Source of the DNA: a virus
DNA length: 30,394 nucleotides
Strand: one strand, 5' to 3'
Virus record (IMG/VR): IMGVR_UViG_3300042389_001683
Coordinates: 1-30,394 of that record
In this document: positions 3,001 through 16,840 of the stretch, one piece after another
Layout of the letters: each line of letters begins with the position of its first letter
Position numbering within the stretch: the stretch's first letter is position 1
Notes under the pieces: model-generated
What the model saw: the letters and a program-made list of their open reading frames with translations, nothing else
Told to the model about the DNA's origin: nothing
Databases searched by the model: none
Translations under genes and position numbers: made by a program

Positions 3001-4635
3001 GGCCGTCTCCAATCCTCGGGCAAATACAACTCCTCCGACATCTCCGCCCTCAGCGGTCCCACCTTCACCGCGCCCGTCCTTCGCCAACTCGAATCCACCC
3101 TCGGCCTCGTCCTCTCCATTTCCGACCGTGGCTTCTACGAATCCGCCTTCCGCGCCAGCCTCGACACCCGCATGAAAGCTGCCGCAGCCAATGGCACCCC
3201 CATGCTCGCCCCCGATCCCGACATGGTCGCCGCCGCCCGCATGGATGCTGGCCGCGCCATTTACCAGGACGATAATGCCGCGAGCCGCACACTCGGCGGT
3301 CTCCGCCGCGTCCTAAATTTCAATCAACGCTGGGGCATCGGCTCCCTCCTGATGAAATTCACCCAAGTCCCCGGCTCGATCCTCACCCGCGCCGTGGAAT
3401 TTTCCCCGCTTGGATTCATCAACACCGCCTACCAAAGCCTCGCGCCGATGCTCTCCAGCTCCCGCGAGTTCGACCAGAAAGCCTTCACCGATTCCTTCTC
3501 CCGCGCCCTCGTCGGCACCACCGGCCTCGTCGCCACCGGCTACTGGCTCGCCCACCTGGGGATCATCTCCGCTGGCAGCGACGCCAAGGACGAAGACAAA
3601 CGAAACCTCAACCGCGCCACCGGATGGGGAGCCTACAAACTCAACACCAGCGCCCTCAAACGCGCCCTCATGACCGGCAATTTCTGGACCCCTCAGAAAC
3701 AACAGCGCGACGACATGGTGATCGGCTACGATTGGGCACAGCCCCTCTCCATCGGCGTCGCCATGGGAGCTTACTCCCGCGAGAATCAAGAGGCCATCAA
3801 GCAAGACATCCTCGCAGGCAAGAAGCAAAGCCTCGCCGCCAACGGCCTCAACTGGCTCGCCTACGCAGGCGGCGCCGCCACCGGAGCCATGAACTCCCTC
3901 GTCGAGCAGCCGCTTCTCACCGGCCTCAATCAATTCGCCCGCGATGTCGGCTACGACAACATCCCCGGCGCACTCCTCAAAACCGCCGCCGACGCCCCCG
4001 GCACCTTCATCCCCACCGCCGCCCGGCAATGGATGCAACTCACCGACAACTCCGTTCGTGAAACCCGCGACAGCTCACCCACGCGCCAATTCATCAACGA
4101 ACTCAAAGCCCAACTCCCCGGCCTCAGCAAAACCCTCCCGCAGAAATACGACATCGCCGGGCAACCCATCGACCGCTGGGCCAAGGACAGCAACACTCTT
4201 TTCAATGTCCTCTTCAATCCCTCGATGGTCTCCTATATCAAAGGCAGCCCAGCGCTCACCGAGATGAGCCAGGTTTACAAATACACCGCCGAGGCCGGAG
4301 CCATCCCCAACCAGGTCAAACCGGAGTTCACCCTCGAAGGCGTCAAGGTCCGCCTCAGCTCCGAAGAGATCAGCGCCATGCAGAAAGACATGGGAGCCCT
4401 CAGCATCGCCGCGCTGGAGAAGTTTGTCCTGTCCGATCCCCGCTACGACAAAGCCACATGGGACGCCAAAGCCCGCGCCATGACCCGCGCCCTGGAGAAA
4501 GCCGCCACCGCCGCCAAATACCGCATCCTCATGTCTCGCCCCGACCTCAAGACCCGCGCCAAGCAGGAATACGACGCCATCCAAGCCACCCGCGCCGCCA
4601 CCCAAGCCGACATGCTCGCCCCCGCCGGGCCGTAG
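1..4635 (+). CDS. Giant polyvalent phage protein with RadC-type JAMM domain (5' end cut by window edge)
   Basis: The frame is open from base 1 to the stop at 4633-4635 (1,544 codons), so the true start lies outside the left edge. A TTG at 538 is only an internal codon. The first ~90 codons are Pro/Ala/Ser/Thr-rich with two copies of a 9-codon repeat. Codons ~237-360 form a RadC-like JAB/MPN domain. Its metal-binding JAMM motif HxHx10D is H315, H317, D328 (HNHPSGDPAPSTQD), as in zinc isopeptidases. Further on are an Ala-rich helical region (codons ~560-900), a conserved block near 911-957 (LNPKTVGRNVIGNT) and a possible membrane helix near 1170-1194. This organisation is typical of large polyvalent phage proteins, inferred to be packaged and injected to act early in infection. 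The stop is 3 bp from the convergent integrase stop. The right edge of the window probably supplies the missing 12 N-terminal codons. Family assignment is firm; the substrate is unknown. Confidence 0.85.
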   Translation, partial: EVPQNFTPISAAAPARPETLKGRPTSESLTGPATSESLTTGPAPRTLGQVRAPQIAIDQAALDETFGPAAIPPNTSTAPAAASGAPASTGSPDLITGEGASVSVAPIKQDQFDFDRASAYSKSVGVTNLQEATNGISSALAQIRDERLASPYQGDFQTQLFATQEGASGDSFNGATSNELSQPGPGEVSEQDYDRLVEEGLRGDWQSLAGAVAMRGRASSILPDLVDGKLPVWNIAGTQIQSPSDLAATLLPLRSPYMESVKVAVLDSKNRVVTSEVVSVGTISEAATHARELTRSLARIRKSTGKNFGKIILSHNHPSGDPAPSTQDIRFTQNLDAAAKAMGFEVVDHIITNGSKFYSFRDDGIINSKYEGDEVIADFDQIKSPPKFIEAKANWERVLRRELPYMDSPDKAAALLSVLKQGDLNAGHILYLNSRLRMTAVERIPDIYSYANDAVKLKDLKRKIMETASLDGAYGFIFQTPEQGTKALGLMRELREFSRQANLPLLDFAATSPDDPNLFFSYKNAGFLEQAGNYQAGSIAEQTPVFGKTSEPKPRKFAQSVDAAEGVAPEVKSRMTSLDYDPVSNAETLANARARIDSAGSIDTAFTDLMGKPAIEGWQPTAEDYATGMELMAQLQNRNRHADAASIANMMAARATDQGRAIQALSMIGRLGPQGIELFAQQQLQAAATKPAKSDKQKADIQAKITEAGQLQSEVDRLRRDSTTAAIVANKDLIKSSLPAGVDAVQVNLAIREAILGAPTPLAAQAATSSILTGQGLSEKGAARISGSIVRDFLKTTQDTRAKVLQDLLATADSDRRLNKSKLGDLIRLNREGQLTDPKLHAAMAKMLGIPHWSAEHSAKVQRILAQREKATDPRIKLVKAAEALDVVYREFMPPGFLDKVDTLQTIAMLLNPKTVGRNVIGNTLMSAADLAADAVSVPMDALVSLGTGQRTRTGLSLGERLVGLGAGVSDIRAGYQFARSEGRGRIASIAEGVDTLVRLGRLQSSGKYNSSDISALSGPTFTAPVLRQLESTLGLVLSISDRGFYESAFRASLDTRMKAAAANGTPMLAPDPDMVAAARMDAGRAIYQDDNAASRTLGGLRRVLNFNQRWGIGSLLMKFTQVPGSILTRAVEFSPLGFINTAYQSLAPMLSSSREFDQKAFTDSFSRALVGTTGLVATGYWLAHLGIISAGSDAKDEDKRNLNRATGWGAYKLNTSALKRALMTGNFWTPQKQQRDDMVIGYDWAQPLSIGVAMGAYSRENQEAIKQDILAGKKQSLAANGLNWLAYAGGAATGAMNSLVEQPLLTGLNQFARDVGYDNIPGALLKTAADAPGTFIPTAARQWMQLTDNSVRETRDSSPTRQFINELKAQLPGLSKTLPQKYDIAGQPIDRWAKDSNTLFNVLFNPSMVSYIKGSPALTEMSQVYKYTAEAGAIPNQVKPEFTLEGVKVRLSSEEISAMQKDMGALSIAALEKFVLSDPRYDKATWDAKARAMTRALEKAATAAKYRILMSRPDLKTRAKQEYDAIQATRAATQADMLAPAGP

Positions 4636-4638
4636 TCC

Positions 4639-5790
4639 TCACAGCGGGTCCGGCTCGCTCACCAAATCATGGTAGTGCGCCCAGGTAGTCTGGAACGATC
4701 CATGCCGCAGCATGCGGCTCGCCACCTCCAATCCGCTCCGCATCGCAATCTCCGCGCCGAATTGCCCACGCAGAGCATAGCTCACTTTGTGCCCAGGCCG
4801 ATTCACCAGAAATTTCCGCGCCCATTCATTGATCGTCCGCTGATACAAATCCTCAGCATCCGTCTTGTGCTTGCGCGGAATCACAAACTCCCCATCACCC
4901 GGAAACGCCGCTCGCAACTGCTCCAATAATTCCCGCCGCACCGGCACCGCCCCATCCCGTCCCTTCGGCACATACATCGTTCCATCCGGCAGCTTCCGTT
5001 TCACGAAATCCAGCAACGGCCCCTTCGCTCCCTCGCGCACCCAATCCCAGCGCAGCTCCATCGTCTCATTGTTTCGCAGCCCGCACCACCGCATCAGCGC
5101 AAACACCGCCCAAATTCTCCGGTCCTCCTCCAGCTCGCTCGTCCGCAACTTCTCCGCCGCCTCCTCCATCGCCGCAAGCTGCCCTGGCTCGATCACCCGA
5201 AACGGCTCCGCCTTCCCCGCCTCCGCTCCACCCCGCCGCCGCGTCGAGAACCCCACCGCCCGGAACGCCGCCACATCCGGCAAATGCAAATCCTCGTAGT
5301 AGTGCATCACACCCGGCGCAAACATCGACTTGATCGAATTCACATCCGACCGAATCCCTGACGCCGCCCGCCCCGCCGCCACTTGCTTCTCCACCCATTT
5401 CCGAAACCGCTCCGCCCTTAGAACCTCATCAATCCGGCGTCCCCCCGCCGCCTCCGTCTCGAACTCCTCCTTCACATACCGCTCAAACCGCCCCGCCACC
5501 GCCCGCGCCGTCTTCGGCCCCTTCTCCTTCCACTTGTCCACCACCTCCTGCACGGTTGCAAACCCCGGACGCCTCGATACCTCCTCTTGCGTCTTCGTGT
5601 CCCCCGTCCGAATCGCCTCGGCCAGCCGCTTCGCCACCTTCAACGCCGTCGGCTTATCCGACTTCGTTCGGACATCCGTGGACCGCAGATACCGGCGTCC
5701 CCGATACTGGCAACGATAATACCAGACATGGCGGGATTCGTTCCAAACGACCGAAACCTCGCCCCATTTCCGCTGTGATTTTTCTTTCAT
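4639..5790 (-). CDS. int: Tyrosine-recombinase phage integrase
   Basis: This 383-residue site-specific recombinase would integrate the phage at a tRNA-Lys gene. The C-terminal catalytic domain has the arginine box (MRWCGLRNNETMEL), a lysine in the beta-hairpin (VPKGRDGAVPV), a YALR motif where most relatives have HxLR, LRHGSFQTT as the H/W box, and the tyrosine nucleophile in HYHD near the C-terminus. The N-terminal ~100 residues are basic and resemble an arm-binding plus SAM-like core-binding domain. An in-frame ATG at 5832 would add 14 residues. I prefer 5790 because the longer start would run through a repeat (5799-5816) that looks like an arm-type site, and the shorter protein starts MKEKSQRKWGEV as relatives often do. 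It is the last gene of the leftward group and is convergent with the polyvalent gene. The attachment core lies 121 bp upstream of its start. The His-to-Tyr change in the HxxR motif is tolerated in some integrases. Confidence 0.93.
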   Translation of the reverse strand: MKEKSQRKWGEVSVVWNESRHVWYYRCQYRGRRYLRSTDVRTKSDKPTALKVAKRLAEAIRTGDTKTQEEVSRRPGFATVQEVVDKWKEKGPKTARAVAGRFERYVKEEFETEAAGGRRIDEVLRAERFRKWVEKQVAAGRAASGIRSDVNSIKSMFAPGVMHYYEDLHLPDVAAFRAVGFSTRRRGGAEAGKAEPFRVIEPGQLAAMEEAAEKLRTSELEEDRRIWAVFALMRWCGLRNNETMELRWDWVREGAKGPLLDFVKRKLPDGTMYVPKGRDGAVPVRRELLEQLRAAFPGDGEFVIPRKHKTDAEDLYQRTINEWARKFLVNRPGHKVSYALRGQFGAEIAMRSGLEVASRMLRHGSFQTTWAHYHDLVSEPDPL

Positions 5791-5798
5791 AAAGAGTG

Positions 5799-5816
5799 GC
5801 CACTTCGCATGCCACT
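5799..5816 (+). repeat. Candidate integrase arm-type site, copy 1
   Basis: The sequence GCCACTTCGCATGCCACT matches 5998-6015 (GCCGCTTTGCATGCCACT) at 16 of 18 positions, in the same orientation. The two copies flank the tRNA-Lys attachment core on either side. This is the layout expected of arm-type integrase sites in an attP. The role is inferred from position only. Confidence 0.5.
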
Positions 5817-5910
5817 TTTTACTAAACCACAACCCTGCAAATTTTCCACAATTTCCAGAGCAACCAACGCAAAGCCCTGCAAATCAGCAATCCGATCAGC
5901 TATTAAGAAG

Positions 5911-5952
5911 TGCGCCCCCCGGGGCTCGAACCCGGAACCAATTGATTAAGAG
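5911..5952 (-). other. attP: attP core: 3' half of a tRNA-Lys(CUU) gene
   Basis: Read on the minus strand, this stretch is the 3' part of a tRNA. It has an anticodon loop CTCTTAA (anticodon CTT, lysine), the 3' anticodon strand TCAAT, a 5-nt variable loop, a T arm CCGGG-TTCGAGC-CCCGG, a 7-nt acceptor strand GGGGCGC and discriminator A at 5911. CCA is not encoded. The bases 5' of the anticodon loop do not pair with the anticodon stem, so this is not a functional tRNA gene. Phages that integrate into tRNA genes carry exactly such a 3' segment to restore the gene. It sits beside the integrase, so it is the crossover region of attP. It implies integration into a host tRNA-Lys(CUU) gene. Confidence 0.88.
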
Positions 5953-5997
5953 ACTAAGGTTTCTTTAATGATTTGGAATGGCTTATCAAAATTGCCT

Positions 5998-6015: not shown

Positions 6016-6185
6016 CAGTTTGGCTTTTCTGGCTCTTTTCCATCCACAAGGGCGGGTGGGAATTCGCGGTCTTCGGCAGCCAGGTTTTCATCGGTCGTCT
6101 GTTCAATGTCGAGCCGGTCGATGAGGTTTGCAAGGGCTTCAAGGGCCGCTTCGCTTTTGGGTGAGTGTGGGTTTGGCGTTTCCAT
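6015..6185 (-). CDS. Small acidic protein of unknown function (56 aa)
   Basis: This short minus-strand frame starts at ATG 6183-6185 and ends TGA at 6015-6017. It encodes an acidic peptide beginning METPNPHSPK, with an amphipathic helical stretch (ALEALANLIDRLDIEQ) and a charged tail. It overlaps the last 47 bases of the lipoprotein gene upstream in another frame, as expected for translational coupling in a compact phage operon. It lies between that gene and the attachment site. I recognise no family. The competing longer frame across the region (5954-6691) has no recognisable protein and disagrees with the lipoprotein frame. Confidence 0.5.
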   Translation of the reverse strand: METPNPHSPKSEAALEALANLIDRLDIEQTTDENLAAEDREFPPALVDGKEPEKPN

Positions 6186-6597
6186 ATTTCTGAGCCATGT
6201 ATTCCATGGCGTGCATGTAGCCAGTTCGAGGAACGACTATCGCGATGTTTTGCGGAATGGGTTCGTCGGAGTCGAACATCTCGTAATTCATGGAGCCGTC
6301 GGGCCAGCGGGCGCGGAATTTCTGGCTGAGGCGTCCGTTGTAGGGCCAGCGTGGATAGGTGTCCGCATAGGGCTGAACAGGGACGATGCTGATCGTTACG
6401 GGCGCGGCTCCCAGGACATCGCCATTCCAATCCACAATGCCGCCCGCCGGGCTGGTGTGGATGGTGATTTCTTGTGGCGGCAAGACAGGCCGCGTCGCGG
6501 AAAATTTTGGTGCCGGTTTGCTCGGGCCAGCGCATCCGCAAATTCCCAACACCGCCGCCAGAACGAGCATTGATGCGGGTCGCCGAAGGTTTTTCAC
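6139..6597 (-). CDS. Putative lipoprotein with PEGA-like segment
   Basis: A 152-residue protein starts at GTG 6595-6597. That codon overlaps the TGA of the preceding gene in a GTGA arrangement, which supports this start. The N-terminus is a lipoprotein signal: basic n-region (KNLRRP), hydrophobic core (MLVLAAVLG) and lipobox ICGC near residue 22, so the mature protein should be lipid-anchored. Residues ~45-70 (ITIHTSPAGGIVDWNGDVLGAAPVTI, a run over two strands) resemble the PEGA-type surface beta domain. It is expressed with a membrane protein and a ribbon-helix-helix regulator in the lysogeny-side operon. A role in altering the lysogen's envelope, such as superinfection exclusion, is an inference. 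Confidence 0.72.
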   Translation of the reverse strand: MKNLRRPASMLVLAAVLGICGCAGPSKPAPKFSATRPVLPPQEITIHTSPAGGIVDWNGDVLGAAPVTISIVPVQPYADTYPRWPYNGRLSQKFRARWPDGSMNYEMFDSDEPIPQNIAIVVPRTGYMHAMEYMAQKYGNAKPTLTQKRSGP

Positions 6598-6939: not shown

Positions 6940-7290
6940 TTAATTCGATGATCTCCGCCTGGTGCCCTGCGGGTAGGCAGTCGATTTCTGGGCTGTTTTT
7001 GACCCACCATCGGGCGCGACGGATGGATCGTGCATCGAGTCCCCATGGTGCCCGGCAGGCTCCTCCTGCATCAGTGTTATTTCGGGAGCATGAAACATGT
7101 TTGCAGGCAAAACCTTTCTATCTTTTGCAAACTCGGTCGGGCTCACGATTCTTTTTTGCATGCCGAAAAACTGTTCAAGAGCCTGCACAATCACGGCGGA
7201 TCGTTTGATGCCCTGGGCCGCTGCATAACCATCCACCAACTCGAACAGAGCTTTCGGCATCCTGGTGTCGATCTTTCGGTGGTCTGACAT
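6940..7290 (-). CDS. Ribbon-helix-helix DNA-binding protein (leftward, lysogeny side)
   Basis: From ATG 7288-7290 the 116-residue product starts MSDHRKIDTRMPKALFELVD, followed by YAAAQGIKRSAVIVQALEQFF. This is the beta strand, helix, turn and helix of the CopG/MetJ-type ribbon-helix-helix fold (residues ~4-45). The rest is a polar tail without recognised motifs. A start at ATG 7363-7365 is open but would lie inside the operator-like palindrome, so the shorter form is preferred. It is the first gene of the leftward operon and diverges from a second ribbon-helix-helix gene across 95 bp. That arrangement fits a repressor controlling the switch region. Which of the two proteins is the lysogenic repressor cannot be told from sequence. 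Confidence 0.75.
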   Translation of the reverse strand: MSDHRKIDTRMPKALFELVDGYAAAQGIKRSAVIVQALEQFFGMQKRIVSPTEFAKDRKVLPANMFHAPEITLMQEEPAGHHGDSMHDPSVAPDGGSKTAQKSTAYPQGTRRRSSN

Positions 7291-7385
7291 GTTCCGACAA
7301 TCGCCACCGTCACCCCGGAGGGCAAATAAAATATTTTTATTTTTCCCTGTTGACTTGTCAGACACTTTCTGAAAATATCAGACAC
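7291..7385. promoter_or_regulatory. Divergent control region between two ribbon-helix-helix genes
   Basis: This 95-bp gap separates divergently transcribed regulator genes. Rightward, TTGACT at 7350-7355 and AAATAT at 7373-7378 are spaced by 17 bp and would start transcription almost at the ATG (7386). Leftward, an AT-rich run at 7326-7344 could supply a -10. The octamer TCAGACAC occurs at 7358-7365 and 7378-7385, exactly 20 bp (two helical turns) apart. Promoter calls are by eye. Confidence 0.6.
7356..7374. promoter_or_regulatory. Operator-like imperfect palindrome O1
   Basis: TGTCAGACACTTTCTGAAA matches the perfect palindrome at 7530-7548 in layout: TGTCAGA, three bases, TTTCTGA. It overlaps the spacer of the proposed rightward promoter, so a bound regulator would block it. 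This is the likely target of one or both flanking ribbon-helix-helix proteins. Confidence 0.6.
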
Positions 7386-7580
7386 ATGACAGATAAAACA
7401 ACGCACACCAGACTGTCAGCGCGGCTCCCAGAGCCGCTTTGCGGGCGGCTCCGCGAGGAAGCAGCCAGACGGATGTGCAGCGCGTCCGACATAGTTCGGA
7501 TGTCGCTGCTCAATTTTTTTGAAACAGAATGTCAGAAAGTTTCTGACAATCCTTCCCGCTCTCAGGAGTTGCCGGTATGA
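7386..7580 (+). CDS. Ribbon-helix-helix DNA-binding protein (rightward, first early gene)
   Basis: The 64-residue product starts MTDKTTHTRLSARLPEPLCG and continues with a helix-turn-helix pair (LREEAARRMCSASDIVRMSLLNFF). This is a typical Arc/CopG-like ribbon-helix-helix domain that fills most of the protein. ATG 7386 is chosen over 7350 because the longer form would start inside the operator and extend past the usual beta-strand start. It is the first gene of the rightward early operon and overlaps the next gene by ATGA. A perfect 19-bp palindrome (7530-7548) lies in its own 3' coding end, matching the one in its promoter, which suggests autoregulation or looping. A Cro-like role is inferred. 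Confidence 0.78.
   Translation: MTDKTTHTRLSARLPEPLCGRLREEAARRMCSASDIVRMSLLNFFETECQKVSDNPSRSQELPV
7530..7548. promoter_or_regulatory. Perfect operator-like palindrome O2 inside the regulator gene
   Basis: TGTCAGAAAGTTTCTGACA is a perfect 9+1+9 inverted repeat near the 3' end of the rightward regulator gene. It shares half-sites with 7356-7374, centre to centre 174 bp away. This is long enough for a looped repression complex. Confidence 0.6.
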
Positions 7581-7792: not shown

Positions 7793-7896
7793 TCGCCGCC
7801 GACACTTTGCTCGCCGCCGGTTTTTTTGTGGAGGCCGTTTTCAAATTCGCCCCGCTTTTTTTGCTCGGGCTCTTCACATGGAGGCTGGCGCGATGA
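7789..7896 (+). CDS. 35-aa single-span membrane peptide
   Basis: The frame starts at ATG 7789, overlapping the stop of the previous gene, with GGAGGT seven bases upstream. It ends in an ATGA overlap with the next gene. The peptide (MIAADTLLAAGFFVEAVFKF, then APLFLLGLFTWRLAR) is hydrophobic over ~25 residues with a basic C-terminus, so it is a likely inner-membrane peptide. The overlaps on both sides and the strong ribosome site are what make it credible. Function unknown. Confidence 0.6.
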   Translation: MIAADTLLAAGFFVEAVFKFAPLFLLGLFTWRLAR

Positions 7897-8126
7897 TTGA
7901 GAAGCATTACTCCATGCGGGAACTCGGTCGTTTAATCGGCATCTCGCATGTCACCCTCTCGCACCGCATCGAGGAGGGTGATCTCCGCGCCGTCCGCATC
8001 GGCAAGCGGGTGCTGATTCCAGAATCCGCTGCCAGCGAATGGCTCGTCCGCCATACCGTCAACGCCTCCGTCGGTCTTCGCCGAGGCCGCATACCCCAGA
8101 TCGCCACTCTCACTGCCGCTGCCTAA
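7893..8126 (+). CDS. Excisionase-like helix-turn-helix protein (77 aa)
   Basis: From ATG 7893 (ATGA overlap, GGAGG eight bases upstream) the product reads MIEKHYSMRELGRLIGISHV. Next come a recognition helix (TLSHRIEEGDLRAVRIGKRV) and LIPESAASEWL. This is the MerR-like winged helix-turn-helix of the excisionase/HTH_17 family (residues ~6-55), where the wing carries the basic GKRV and the last helix ends the fold. Such proteins direct integrase towards excision or regulate promoters. Being the only full-length member and in the early operon of an integrase phage, it is a reasonable excisionase candidate. It could equally be a transcription factor. Confidence 0.72.
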   Translation: MIEKHYSMRELGRLIGISHVTLSHRIEEGDLRAVRIGKRVLIPESAASEWLVRHTVNASVGLRRGRIPQIATLTAAA

Positions 8127-14176: not shown

Positions 14177-15886
14177 ATGATCCCCCAGACTCCGCACCCC
14201 ATCCTCCCGCAGATCGTCATCGAGCATCGCCGCTCGGATGGCACTTTCAGCATCATCTATCAAAATCGGCGCTTCGCCGCTACCGAGGCCCAGCTCCTCG
14301 CCATCCACGCCGAGCGCGAAGAGCAAATCGCCCGCATGGCCGAAGACCCTTGGCGTTACGGTTGGGTCAACCCCGCCTGGGAACGCGCCGACCGCGCCTA
14401 CGCCGACCTCCGCGAGAAATTCCCCAAAGGCGTCACCGAACTCCTCATCCTCGGCGGCAACCGCTCCGGCAAATCCCGCTACTTCGCCCGCCGCGCCATG
14501 CAGCACCTCGTCGAGAAACCCGGGGCAAAAGTCTGGTGCCTGCAATCGACCGAATCCGCCAGCATTCAAAACCAGCAGCCCTACCTCTGGGAATATCTCC
14601 CCAAGGAATGGAAACCCACCGCCTCGGGCAAACTCAAAAAAGGCGCAGTCGCCAACATCACATACAGCCAGAAAGGCGGCTTCACCGAGAACTCCTTCGT
14701 CCTGCCGAATGGCTCCCAATGCTGGTTCAAATTTTACAGCATGGATGTCACCTCTATTGAAGGCTCCGAGTTGGATTTCGCCTGGGCAGACGAACTTTGC
14801 ACTCCACCCTGGCTTGAGGCTTTACGCTTCCGCCTCCTCACCCGCGATGGCGAACTCGGCGTCGGATTCACACCCATCGAAGGCTACACCAGCACGGTCA
14901 AAGAATACCTCGATGGCGCGAAGACCTTGGAGGAATCCGATGCCCCGCTCCTCCCCCGCTACCGCGCTGGCAAACTCGAAGGCGTCGAGCGCGTCCCCCG
15001 CATCCAGCAATGCACCCGCGAGAAAGCCCGCGTCGTCTATTTCCACACCTCAGACAACCCCTTCGGCAACCCCGAAGCCATGGAAACCGAACTTCGCGGC
15101 AGCAACCGCGAGCGCATCCTCATGCGCGCCTACGGCGTCCCCACCCGCGCCAAGCTCTCCATGTTCCCCAAATTCCGAGACGCCGTCCATGTCGTCCCCC
15201 ACGACAAAGTTCCCAAAGAGGGAACCGTCTATCATTTCGTGGACCCCGGCGAAGGCAAAGCCTGGGCCATGCTCTGGATTCGCTTCTCGCCCGATAACCG
15301 CTGCTGGATTTACCGCGAGTGGCCCAATCAACTCGAATACATCGAAGGCGTCGGCTACCCCGGCCCCTGGGCAGAAGCCGATGGCAAGCTCGAAGACGGA
15401 CGCCCCGGCCCCGCCCAAACCGCCTGCCGCTGGTTCGGCTTCAAAGAATACAAAGCCGTCATCGCCGCCGCCGAGAAAGCCGACGAAATCGCCAAGGTCG
15501 AAGAACGCTGGATGGACAGCCGCTACGGAAACACTCCCACCATGACCGAGGAAGGCGTCCGCACTTTGATCGAGCAATGCCACGACCGCATGGACCTCGA
15601 CTTCAAAGCCACCAGCGGCAAAGCCATCACCGAAGGCGTCGGCATCATTAACGACTGGCTCGCCTTCGACGAAGAAAAACCCCTCGGAGCCGACAACTCC
15701 CCCCGCCTCTACATCAGCGAGCGTTGCCAAAATCTCATCTACGCCCTCAAGACCTGGACCGGCAAAGACGGCAAACACGGCGCGACCAAAGATTTCATAG
15801 ATGTCCTCCGCTACATCGTTCTCGCCCGAGGCGTCGAATATGTGGACCCCGATTCCCTCCGCTCCCGAGGAGGAGGCTGCTACTAA
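14177..15886 (+). CDS. terL: Terminase large subunit
   Basis: The 569-residue packaging motor has an ATPase domain with Walker A GGNRSGKS (residues 93-100), a Walker B ending in DFAWADE (200-206, catalytic E206) and a following coupling region. The C-terminal RNase H-like nuclease has metal-binding aspartates at D356 (HFVDPGEGKAW), D447 (RWMDSRYG) and D542 (KDFIDVLRY). Length and order match DNA-packaging terminases that dock on the portal, pump DNA into the prohead and cut the concatemer. It begins immediately after the small zinc-finger gene. The start MIPQTPHPIL is chosen because it abuts the upstream stop. The ATP-grasping NRSGKS variant is usual in podovirus-like terminases. Confidence 0.95.
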   Translation: MIPQTPHPILPQIVIEHRRSDGTFSIIYQNRRFAATEAQLLAIHAEREEQIARMAEDPWRYGWVNPAWERADRAYADLREKFPKGVTELLILGGNRSGKSRYFARRAMQHLVEKPGAKVWCLQSTESASIQNQQPYLWEYLPKEWKPTASGKLKKGAVANITYSQKGGFTENSFVLPNGSQCWFKFYSMDVTSIEGSELDFAWADELCTPPWLEALRFRLLTRDGELGVGFTPIEGYTSTVKEYLDGAKTLEESDAPLLPRYRAGKLEGVERVPRIQQCTREKARVVYFHTSDNPFGNPEAMETELRGSNRERILMRAYGVPTRAKLSMFPKFRDAVHVVPHDKVPKEGTVYHFVDPGEGKAWAMLWIRFSPDNRCWIYREWPNQLEYIEGVGYPGPWAEADGKLEDGRPGPAQTACRWFGFKEYKAVIAAAEKADEIAKVEERWMDSRYGNTPTMTEEGVRTLIEQCHDRMDLDFKATSGKAITEGVGIINDWLAFDEEKPLGADNSPRLYISERCQNLIYALKTWTGKDGKHGATKDFIDVLRYIVLARGVEYVDPDSLRSRGGGCY

Positions 15887-15891
15887 ATCCT

Positions 15892-15926
15892 CCCTCCGTG
15901 TCCTCTGTGTTCTCTGTGGTTAATCC
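15892..15926 (+). repeat. 35-bp 9-bp-period intergenic repeat, copy A
   Basis: Three degenerate 9-bp units (CCTCCGTGT, CCTCTGTGT, TCTCTGTGG) followed by TTAATCC. It is 33/35 identical to 16798-16832. I recall such elements in intergenic DNA of Verrucomicrobiota and related bacteria, so it is probably host-derived. It lies just after the terminase stop. Confidence 0.75.
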
Positions 15927-15932
15927 CCTCCC

Positions 15933-15953
15933 TTGACACCCGCACCCTATAAT
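15933..15953 (+). promoter_or_regulatory. Promoter-like element with short spacer, copy 1
   Basis: TTGACA (15933-15938) and TATAAT (15948-15953) are perfect consensus boxes but separated by only 9 bp. An equivalent element, TTGACA-8-GATAAT, stands before the gene at 23820. The boxes end 9 bases before ATG 15963. If used as a -10, transcription would start at the start codon. Confidence 0.5.
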
Positions 15954-16673: not shown

Positions 16674-16797
16674 GGCACATCGAGGTCGGGAGGCATATTG
16701 CCGAGTCACCGAGCCGCCGCATGGCGGGGTAGGCGGCGCAACCTTGGCAACCCGGCGTCTGAAAAGGTGGGGCCACACCGTTCCTGTCAAATTTTTC

Positions 16798-16832
16798 CCC
16801 TCCGTGTCCTCCGTGTCCTCTGTGGTTAATCC
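16798..16832 (+). repeat. 35-bp 9-bp-period intergenic repeat, copy B
   Basis: Same orientation as copy A (15892-15926), with 2 differences in 35. The two copies enclose 871 bp holding three small genes, so the block may have entered or been exchanged by recombination between repeats. Confidence 0.75.
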
Positions 16833-16840
16833 ATAATTTT

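Follow-up and report, generated by a model that had tools for sequence, protein, structure and literature searches.

Textbook phage switches are built on helix-turn-helix (HTH) repressors, and the known pair of ribbon-helix-helix (RHH) repressors, Mnt and Arc of phage P22, serves auxiliary control. What, then, is the role of a divergent pair of RHH genes found where a CI/Cro pair would be expected, i.e., flanked by an integrase side that is read leftward and an early operon that is read rightward? The window in which this question arises is an entire IMG/VR virus record of 30,394 bases, which covers about 30 of the about 42 kb of the phage. The original prediction described open reading frames at 6940-7290 on the minus strand and 7386-7580 on the plus strand, took them for an RHH pair that replaces the usual HTH repressor pair, and proposed an uncommon lysis/lysogeny switch with twin operators and looping. 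Both genes are as it described. The features needed for the argument are listed below.

4639-5832, minus strand: tyrosine integrase (phrog_1 integrase, E=1.7e-20)
5910-5955, no strand assigned: tRNA-Leu 3'-end identity block, probable att core, adjoining the integrase
6940-7290, minus strand: leftward RHH gene, 116 aa, beginning MSDHRKIDTRMPKALFELVDGYAAAQGIKRSAVIVQALEQFFG, proposed lysogeny-side repressor
7281-7299, no strand assigned: third array, absent from the original prediction, two boxes with cores 7283-7287 and 7293-7297 (TCTGACATGTTCCGA), across the start codon of the leftward gene
7350-7355, plus strand: candidate -35 element of the rightward promoter, TTGACT, abutting box 1, with the ATG 36 nt downstream
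7356-7384, no strand assigned: candidate operator of the rightward promoter, three boxes with cores 7358-7362, 7368-7372 and 7378-7382 at 10-bp spacing
7386-7580, plus strand: rightward RHH gene, 64 aa, beginning MTDKTTHTRLSARLPEPL, ATG at 7386, proposed Cro-like first gene of the early operon
7530-7548, no strand assigned: intragenic array at the 3' end of the rightward gene, two boxes with cores 7532-7536 and 7542-7546, forming the perfect 19-bp palindrome TGTCAGAAAGTTTCTGACA
7890-8126, plus strand: excisionase-like HTH gene downstream of the switch (phrog_66 excisionase and transcriptional regulator, E=1.4e-4)

By its gene content the phage family appears to be temperate, because an integrase occurs in all 15 family virus records searched (16 of 17 records when the others are included) and the tRNA-Leu block lies beside it. 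This block has one mismatch in 46 nt against a predicted tRNA-Leu(caa) in L151 and a 44-nt match (97.7%) beside the integrase in the Verrucomicrobia MAG L158, and it adjoins the integrase in the window as well as in several relatives. On the other flank, the rightward RHH gene leads into the excisionase-like (xis-like) HTH gene and replication genes.

The RHH assignment would be weak from the two window proteins alone, the rightward one matching Pfam RHH_1 with E = 0.0097, under the cut-off, and the leftward one, also under the Pfam cut-off, matching repressor/Arc-like PHROGs with E = 4e-4 and 0.0025. Homology makes it firm, because homologues of both proteins (G008 and G013 for the left, G014 for the right) pass the RHH_1 cut-off. 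AlphaFold2 models, built from five-sequence alignments and of high confidence in the helices only, have an N-terminal extended segment or ribbon followed by helices 13-26 and 30-41 in the left protein, and an N-terminal extended segment followed by helices 18-28 and 33-54 in the right one. With an N-terminal ribbon, two helices and a profile match, both proteins are consistent with the RHH superfamily. The Foldseek neighbours of both are nearly all RHH proteins (mostly Arc and CopG at E>=0.4 for the left; mostly CopASO, CopG, Arc and AmrZ at E>=1 for the right), yet every E-value exceeds 0.1, as is to be expected of 40-residue folds. The ribbons of both proteins follow a basic-polar/acidic-arginine pattern, R9/S11/R13 in the right protein and K6/D8/R10 in the left, and we take the right-hand residues to occupy the positions of Arc Q9/N11/R13. 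Such patterns are compatible with both proteins reading one common box. A recent paralogous origin of the two was considered and rejected at a profile comparison probability of 2%; their ribbons still align in register. Searches of isolated phages with the right protein returned chance-level matches only, and a sequence search of solved structures had antitoxin Rv0298 as its top match (E=0.15).

RHH proteins also serve plasmids and toxin-antitoxin modules, and both settings have to be weighed here. Plasmid-like control of the copy number or partition of an extrachromosomal prophage, by CopG- or ParG-like proteins, is hinted at by CopG and ORF56 among the structural neighbours and by weak PHROG matches to entries named 'partition protein ATPase'. 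We nevertheless consider it very unlikely, given that the family has an integrase with its att-like tRNA-Leu block, a search of plasmids with the left protein gave no match, and no ParA-like gene is seen beside it. RHH folds are likewise common in antitoxins, which could have autoregulatory operators, and there are weak matches to antitoxin families. Against antitoxins stand the two divergent RHH proteins without a conserved toxin partner and the downstream genes, which are a lipoprotein-like/membrane pair and early phage genes, so that this reading retains a negligible probability.

The DNA around the two genes holds a regular pattern. As had been predicted, a perfect 19-bp palindrome at 7530-7548 is matched by an imperfect one, TGTCAGACACTTTCTGAAA, at 7356-7374, and repeats of TCAGACAC begin at 7358 and 7378. 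All of these are parts of arrays of TC-N-GA boxes with exact 10-bp spacing. TC-N-GA is a five-base pseudo-palindrome, and each 19-bp palindrome consists of two copies whose starts are exactly 10 bp apart; the imperfect one sits inside the three-box promoter array. The two TCAGACAC repeats are boxes 1 and 3 of that array, and they lie 20 bp apart because the promoter site has a third box. As a stand-alone motif TCAGACAC was rejected, the bare 8-mer not being enriched in the window. The twin operators of the original prediction accordingly have to be recast: the phylogenetic footprint described below agrees with the sites acting as operators, but there are three arrays, and the unit is the 10-bp-phased TCNGA box, not the 19-bp palindrome.

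For the palindrome pattern 0.01 chance matches were expected, and two matches arose in none of 100 shuffles. The 30.4-kb record contains four 10-bp-spaced TCNGA pairs, every one in these arrays and within 265 bp, against a mean of 0.63 pairs in first-order Markov simulations; the largest cluster in 300 simulations was two pairs within 300 bp, compared with the four observed. The motif was defined after viewing this locus, and the independent support for it is its recurrence in relatives.

The layout of the rightward promoter is compact. A TTGAC-like element stands at the same place as TTGACT in most relatives; a consensus scan did not call TTGACT. The rightward transcript may be leaderless, a suggestion made because the start codon lies where transcription would begin. 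The middle promoter box and the intragenic array are 164-166 bp apart in the lineages measured, a constancy that the gene length of 63-64 aa forces.

Comparison with relatives is what ties the boxes to the proteins. The major head protein retrieved 80 related contigs of 4-43 kb, and the RHH proteins a handful; 26 loci were compared, i.e., the switch regions of 20 family records and six further loci, including two from Verrucomicrobia MAGs. Among terminase relatives, two are in Verrucomicrobia assemblies, one of them named Chthoniobacter flavus. The evidence for the host consists of two MAG contigs. The closest isolated phage by terminase is C75C1 (31.7% identity), whose annotation has neither integrase nor switch.

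A divergent pair of RHH or RHH-like genes is present in 26 of 26 loci, with about 90-130 codons from the likely start in the leftward gene and about 48-64 in the rightward one. The pairs fall into three allelic types: type I, to which the window belongs, has the ribbons KIDTR/KIDVR and LSARLP, type II STSVD/STTVD and QTQVP-like, and type III FSVRLPE and FSIRLP. Members of all three pass the curated RHH_1 cut-off; those that fail it singly include both window proteins and the type IIa left protein. Genome-wide, RHH_1 matches at E<=0.1 lie at the switch locus, bar a few weak ones. The word 'uncommon' in the original prediction is thus fair among studied phages, where the known RHH pair is that of P22 immI; in the present family, by contrast, every locus examined has the arrangement.

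The box sequence TGTCNGACA is present at the switch in all 10 type I loci and in none of the 16 type II/III loci; Fisher's test gives about 2e-7, a descriptive value since the loci are related, and the type I loci are partly non-independent, L096, L143 and L144 being near copies. Away from the switch, the 24 records searched hold one stray copy each in G009, G020 and G024. The window and L003 show the 10-bp array most clearly; in some type I relatives a single perfect box is recognisable at the promoter or the left start. In L003 all three promoter boxes are kept while the central base flips from A/T/A to T/A/T, so that the N position alone changes, and the intragenic palindrome is identical at 19 of 19 bases in a gene that is 86% identical.

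That palindrome scores terminator-like on the minus strand and could on this ground be an RNA hairpin or terminator instead of an operator. It shares both unit and 10-bp phase with the promoter array, however, its boxes are kept in relatives with other spacers between them (L096, TCAGACAAAGTCTGA), and it is replaced along with the cassette described below; we regard the hairpin as highly improbable.

In the type II and III loci other repeats fill the same gap: CTTATAAGAATTCTTATAAG in L135, TTCTATACAGAATCTGTATAGAA in L142, TCTCACGAGAAACTCACGAGAAA in L147 and GGGTGTGTTTGAATCACAAACACACCC in L133. In L147 (G020), and also in L148 (G015), the TCTCACGAGAAACTCACGAGAAA direct-repeat array at the promoter recurs almost exactly inside the right RHH gene, in L147 at -61 and +17 relative to the right start codon. 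The segment encoded there departs from other type II proteins (ISREIHEKI vs VPAEVDLII). With L147 there is a second example of a promoter array that has a copy within the gene, unlike the window array in sequence, and this supports a function of the intragenic site. In type II, neither protein predicts the operator throughout: L149 and L142 have the right-protein ribbon in common and L147 and L135 much of the left ribbon, and in each pair the operators differ, giving conflicting hints as to whether the left or the right protein is the binder.

Two further observations concern the type II loci. Just before the left start codon, L135-L138 and L145 carry three TTCAAAG-like repeats about 10 bp apart, whose sequence is unlike that of the right operator, and type II phages may have separate operators for the two genes. 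In L135-L138, L142, L145, L147 and L148 the leader of the right gene is longer and contains, close to the start codon, a conserved GGGGT...CCCC hairpin-like repeat that may serve translational control; in type I the leader appears to be absent.

Could the boxes belong instead to the excisionase-like HTH protein, in the manner of Apl in phage 186? The gene for the HTH protein (7890-8126) shares an operon with the rightward RHH gene, and there is a precedent, as the Apl sites are direct repeats between the early promoters and are one helix turn apart, like the boxes here (PMC7498355). Near-identical xis-like proteins nevertheless form three groups, each of which spans type I loci, which have the boxes, and type II/III loci, which lack them, and in 26 of 26 loci the boxes follow the RHH pair and not these groups. 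This strongly suggests that they belong with the RHH pair, the point on which the locus appears to differ from 186 CI/Apl, and ownership by the xis-like protein is largely refuted, with almost no probability left.

The genes and their sites also move together. In the clearest pairwise DNA comparison, the homology between L146 (type I) and L145 (type II) runs to 3391 and returns at 3949; the interval between, 3392-3948, holds the left gene, the operators and the right gene alone (the genes span 3410-3967). Homology thus ends at the outer ends of both genes, and genes and sites therefore move as one cassette. Between L143 and L150 and between L141 and L138, homology is lost across both genes and resumes within the final 10-20 bp of the right one; between L151 and L132 (type I vs III) it is lost across both genes with wider gaps. 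Near-identical phage backbones carry different switch types: G002, G006 and G007 (type III) and G001 (type I) have 94-96% MCP and 89-90% integrase identity to the window. By analogy, a difference of this kind is the way in which heteroimmune phages of one family differ, and the joint exchange of RHH proteins and matching sites suggests that the cassette sets the immunity of each phage.

The strongest challenge to a primary role comes from P22 itself. Its mnt and arc genes are divergently transcribed. Mnt represses arc and ant, and Arc represses mnt (PMC11016777); this immI region lies within the late operon (PMC8022706). It is a secondary region that controls the anti-repressor Ant, with the main repressor, C2, at immC. 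An RHH pair running a side function (anti-repressor, excision or accessory genes) while the true lysogenic repressor sits elsewhere is hence a real, if unlikely, alternative, and it draws weight from the fact that Mnt/Arc, the sole well-studied phage RHH pair, is such a region (PMC11016777; PMC8022706). P22 immI is also the closest precedent, being likewise a pair of RHH repressors in a temperate phage, with Arc among the nearest solved folds. The window pair, however, heads an early operon with excisionase-like and replication genes and is not inside a late operon, no anti-repressor gene was recognised nearby, and the RHH cassette, allelic across the family, is itself the exchanged heteroimmunity-like block. 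Nor did another lysogenic repressor come to light, in line with the original prediction: in 20 family records, several of 40-43 kb, HTH_3 gave no match above the cut-off and Peptidase_S24 no match at all, in a search that covered incomplete records and that a repressor of another fold could escape. Weak HTH_3 matches fell on the xis-like gene and the next gene.

Taken together, divergent genes with candidate operators over both starts, at the head of an early operon and exchanged with those operators, make it rather likely that this locus serves a temperate family of Verrucomicrobia phages as its immunity (lysis/lysogeny) switch, with RHH proteins for both repressors. How such a switch might work, i.e., binding, cooperativity, repression, division of roles and the lysogeny function itself, we infer from the layout. 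Dimers of one or both proteins would insert a two-stranded ribbon into the major groove at each TC-N-GA box, and with boxes one helical turn (10 bp) apart, neighbouring dimers could stack on one DNA face and bind cooperatively. Occupation of the three-box array, which runs from TTGACT to the rightward start codon, would shut off the rightward early/lytic promoter; RNA polymerase would be excluded because boxes 1-3 take up the spacer and extend to the start codon. With the two boxes across the leftward start codon occupied, the leftward gene would be limited through autoregulation or cross-repression, and the intragenic two-box array could block elongating polymerase or stabilise the promoter complex via a short loop. 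By position and analogy, the leftward protein would be the keeper of lysogeny and the rightward one its Cro-like antagonist.

A wider hypothesis goes further: that the primary immunity of a whole tailed-phage family is run by two RHH repressors sharing one set of 10-bp-phased boxes, with the intragenic array looping to the promoter, with at least three heteroimmune types that are swapped as a single cassette of under 600 bp, with no HTH or S24-type self-cleaving repressor, and with induction by another signal. In this complete form we advance it tentatively and consider it possible, though doubtful.

Among known systems, the likeness to lambda CI/Cro lies in the divergent repressor genes, the shared-looking operators between them and over both starts, and the cassette exchange (heteroimmunity). 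Unlike in lambda, both proteins are RHH and not HTH, the operators are 10-bp-phased short boxes, and the combination of HTH_3 and S24 peptidase that marks a lambda-like CI gave no match above the cut-off in the 20 records. The locus is lambda CI/Cro-like in its working and not a member of that family. RecA-driven induction via S24 self-cleavage is unlikely because there is no S24 domain. Dimers of RHH proteins (MetJ, CopG, omega repressor, AmrZ and others) bind tandem short boxes in phase. These are single autoregulators, whereas the present locus has TC-N-GA boxes, a 10-bp phase and a second RHH partner. The regulators of TP901-1 (CI/MOR) and 186 (CI/Apl) are HTH-type proteins. Both pairs form compact two-regulator switches (PMC7250872). 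AvtR of an archaeal lipothrixvirus is a viral RHH regulator and a structural neighbour of the left protein, but it belongs to an archaeal virus and is a single regulator. No description of an RHH pair as a primary phage immunity switch was found in open-access papers, subscription journals being outside the scope of the search.

If the proposed role is true, the logic of CI/Cro has been rebuilt on another DNA-binding fold, in a family with RHH repressors alone at the immunity locus. The route of prophage induction becomes a concrete question, as no S24-type repressor was found. Moreover, the allelic series, in which proteins and matching sites are exchanged together, lends itself to the study of RHH specificity as a natural data set and yields predicted immunity groups among uncultured Verrucomicrobia phages.

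Several observations concern the surroundings of the switch. At 6139-6597 on the minus strand, downstream of the left RHH gene, lies a lipoprotein-like gene with a weak PEGA-domain match that occurs in nearly all relatives; its product is a candidate surface or superinfection-exclusion protein expressed by the prophage. Tandem repeats that encode GGWWLVAGGWWLVA in several reading frames lie close to the downstream end of the left gene in the relatives L096 (1-210), L145 (3200-3420), L149 (3265-3480) and L150 (1-290). Finally, a low-complexity element with the translations TTENTEDTEGG or LRVLCVLCG / SVSSVSSVVNP is present in two copies, at about 15880-15940 and 16780-16840, which flank the genes between about 15.9 and 16.8 kb.
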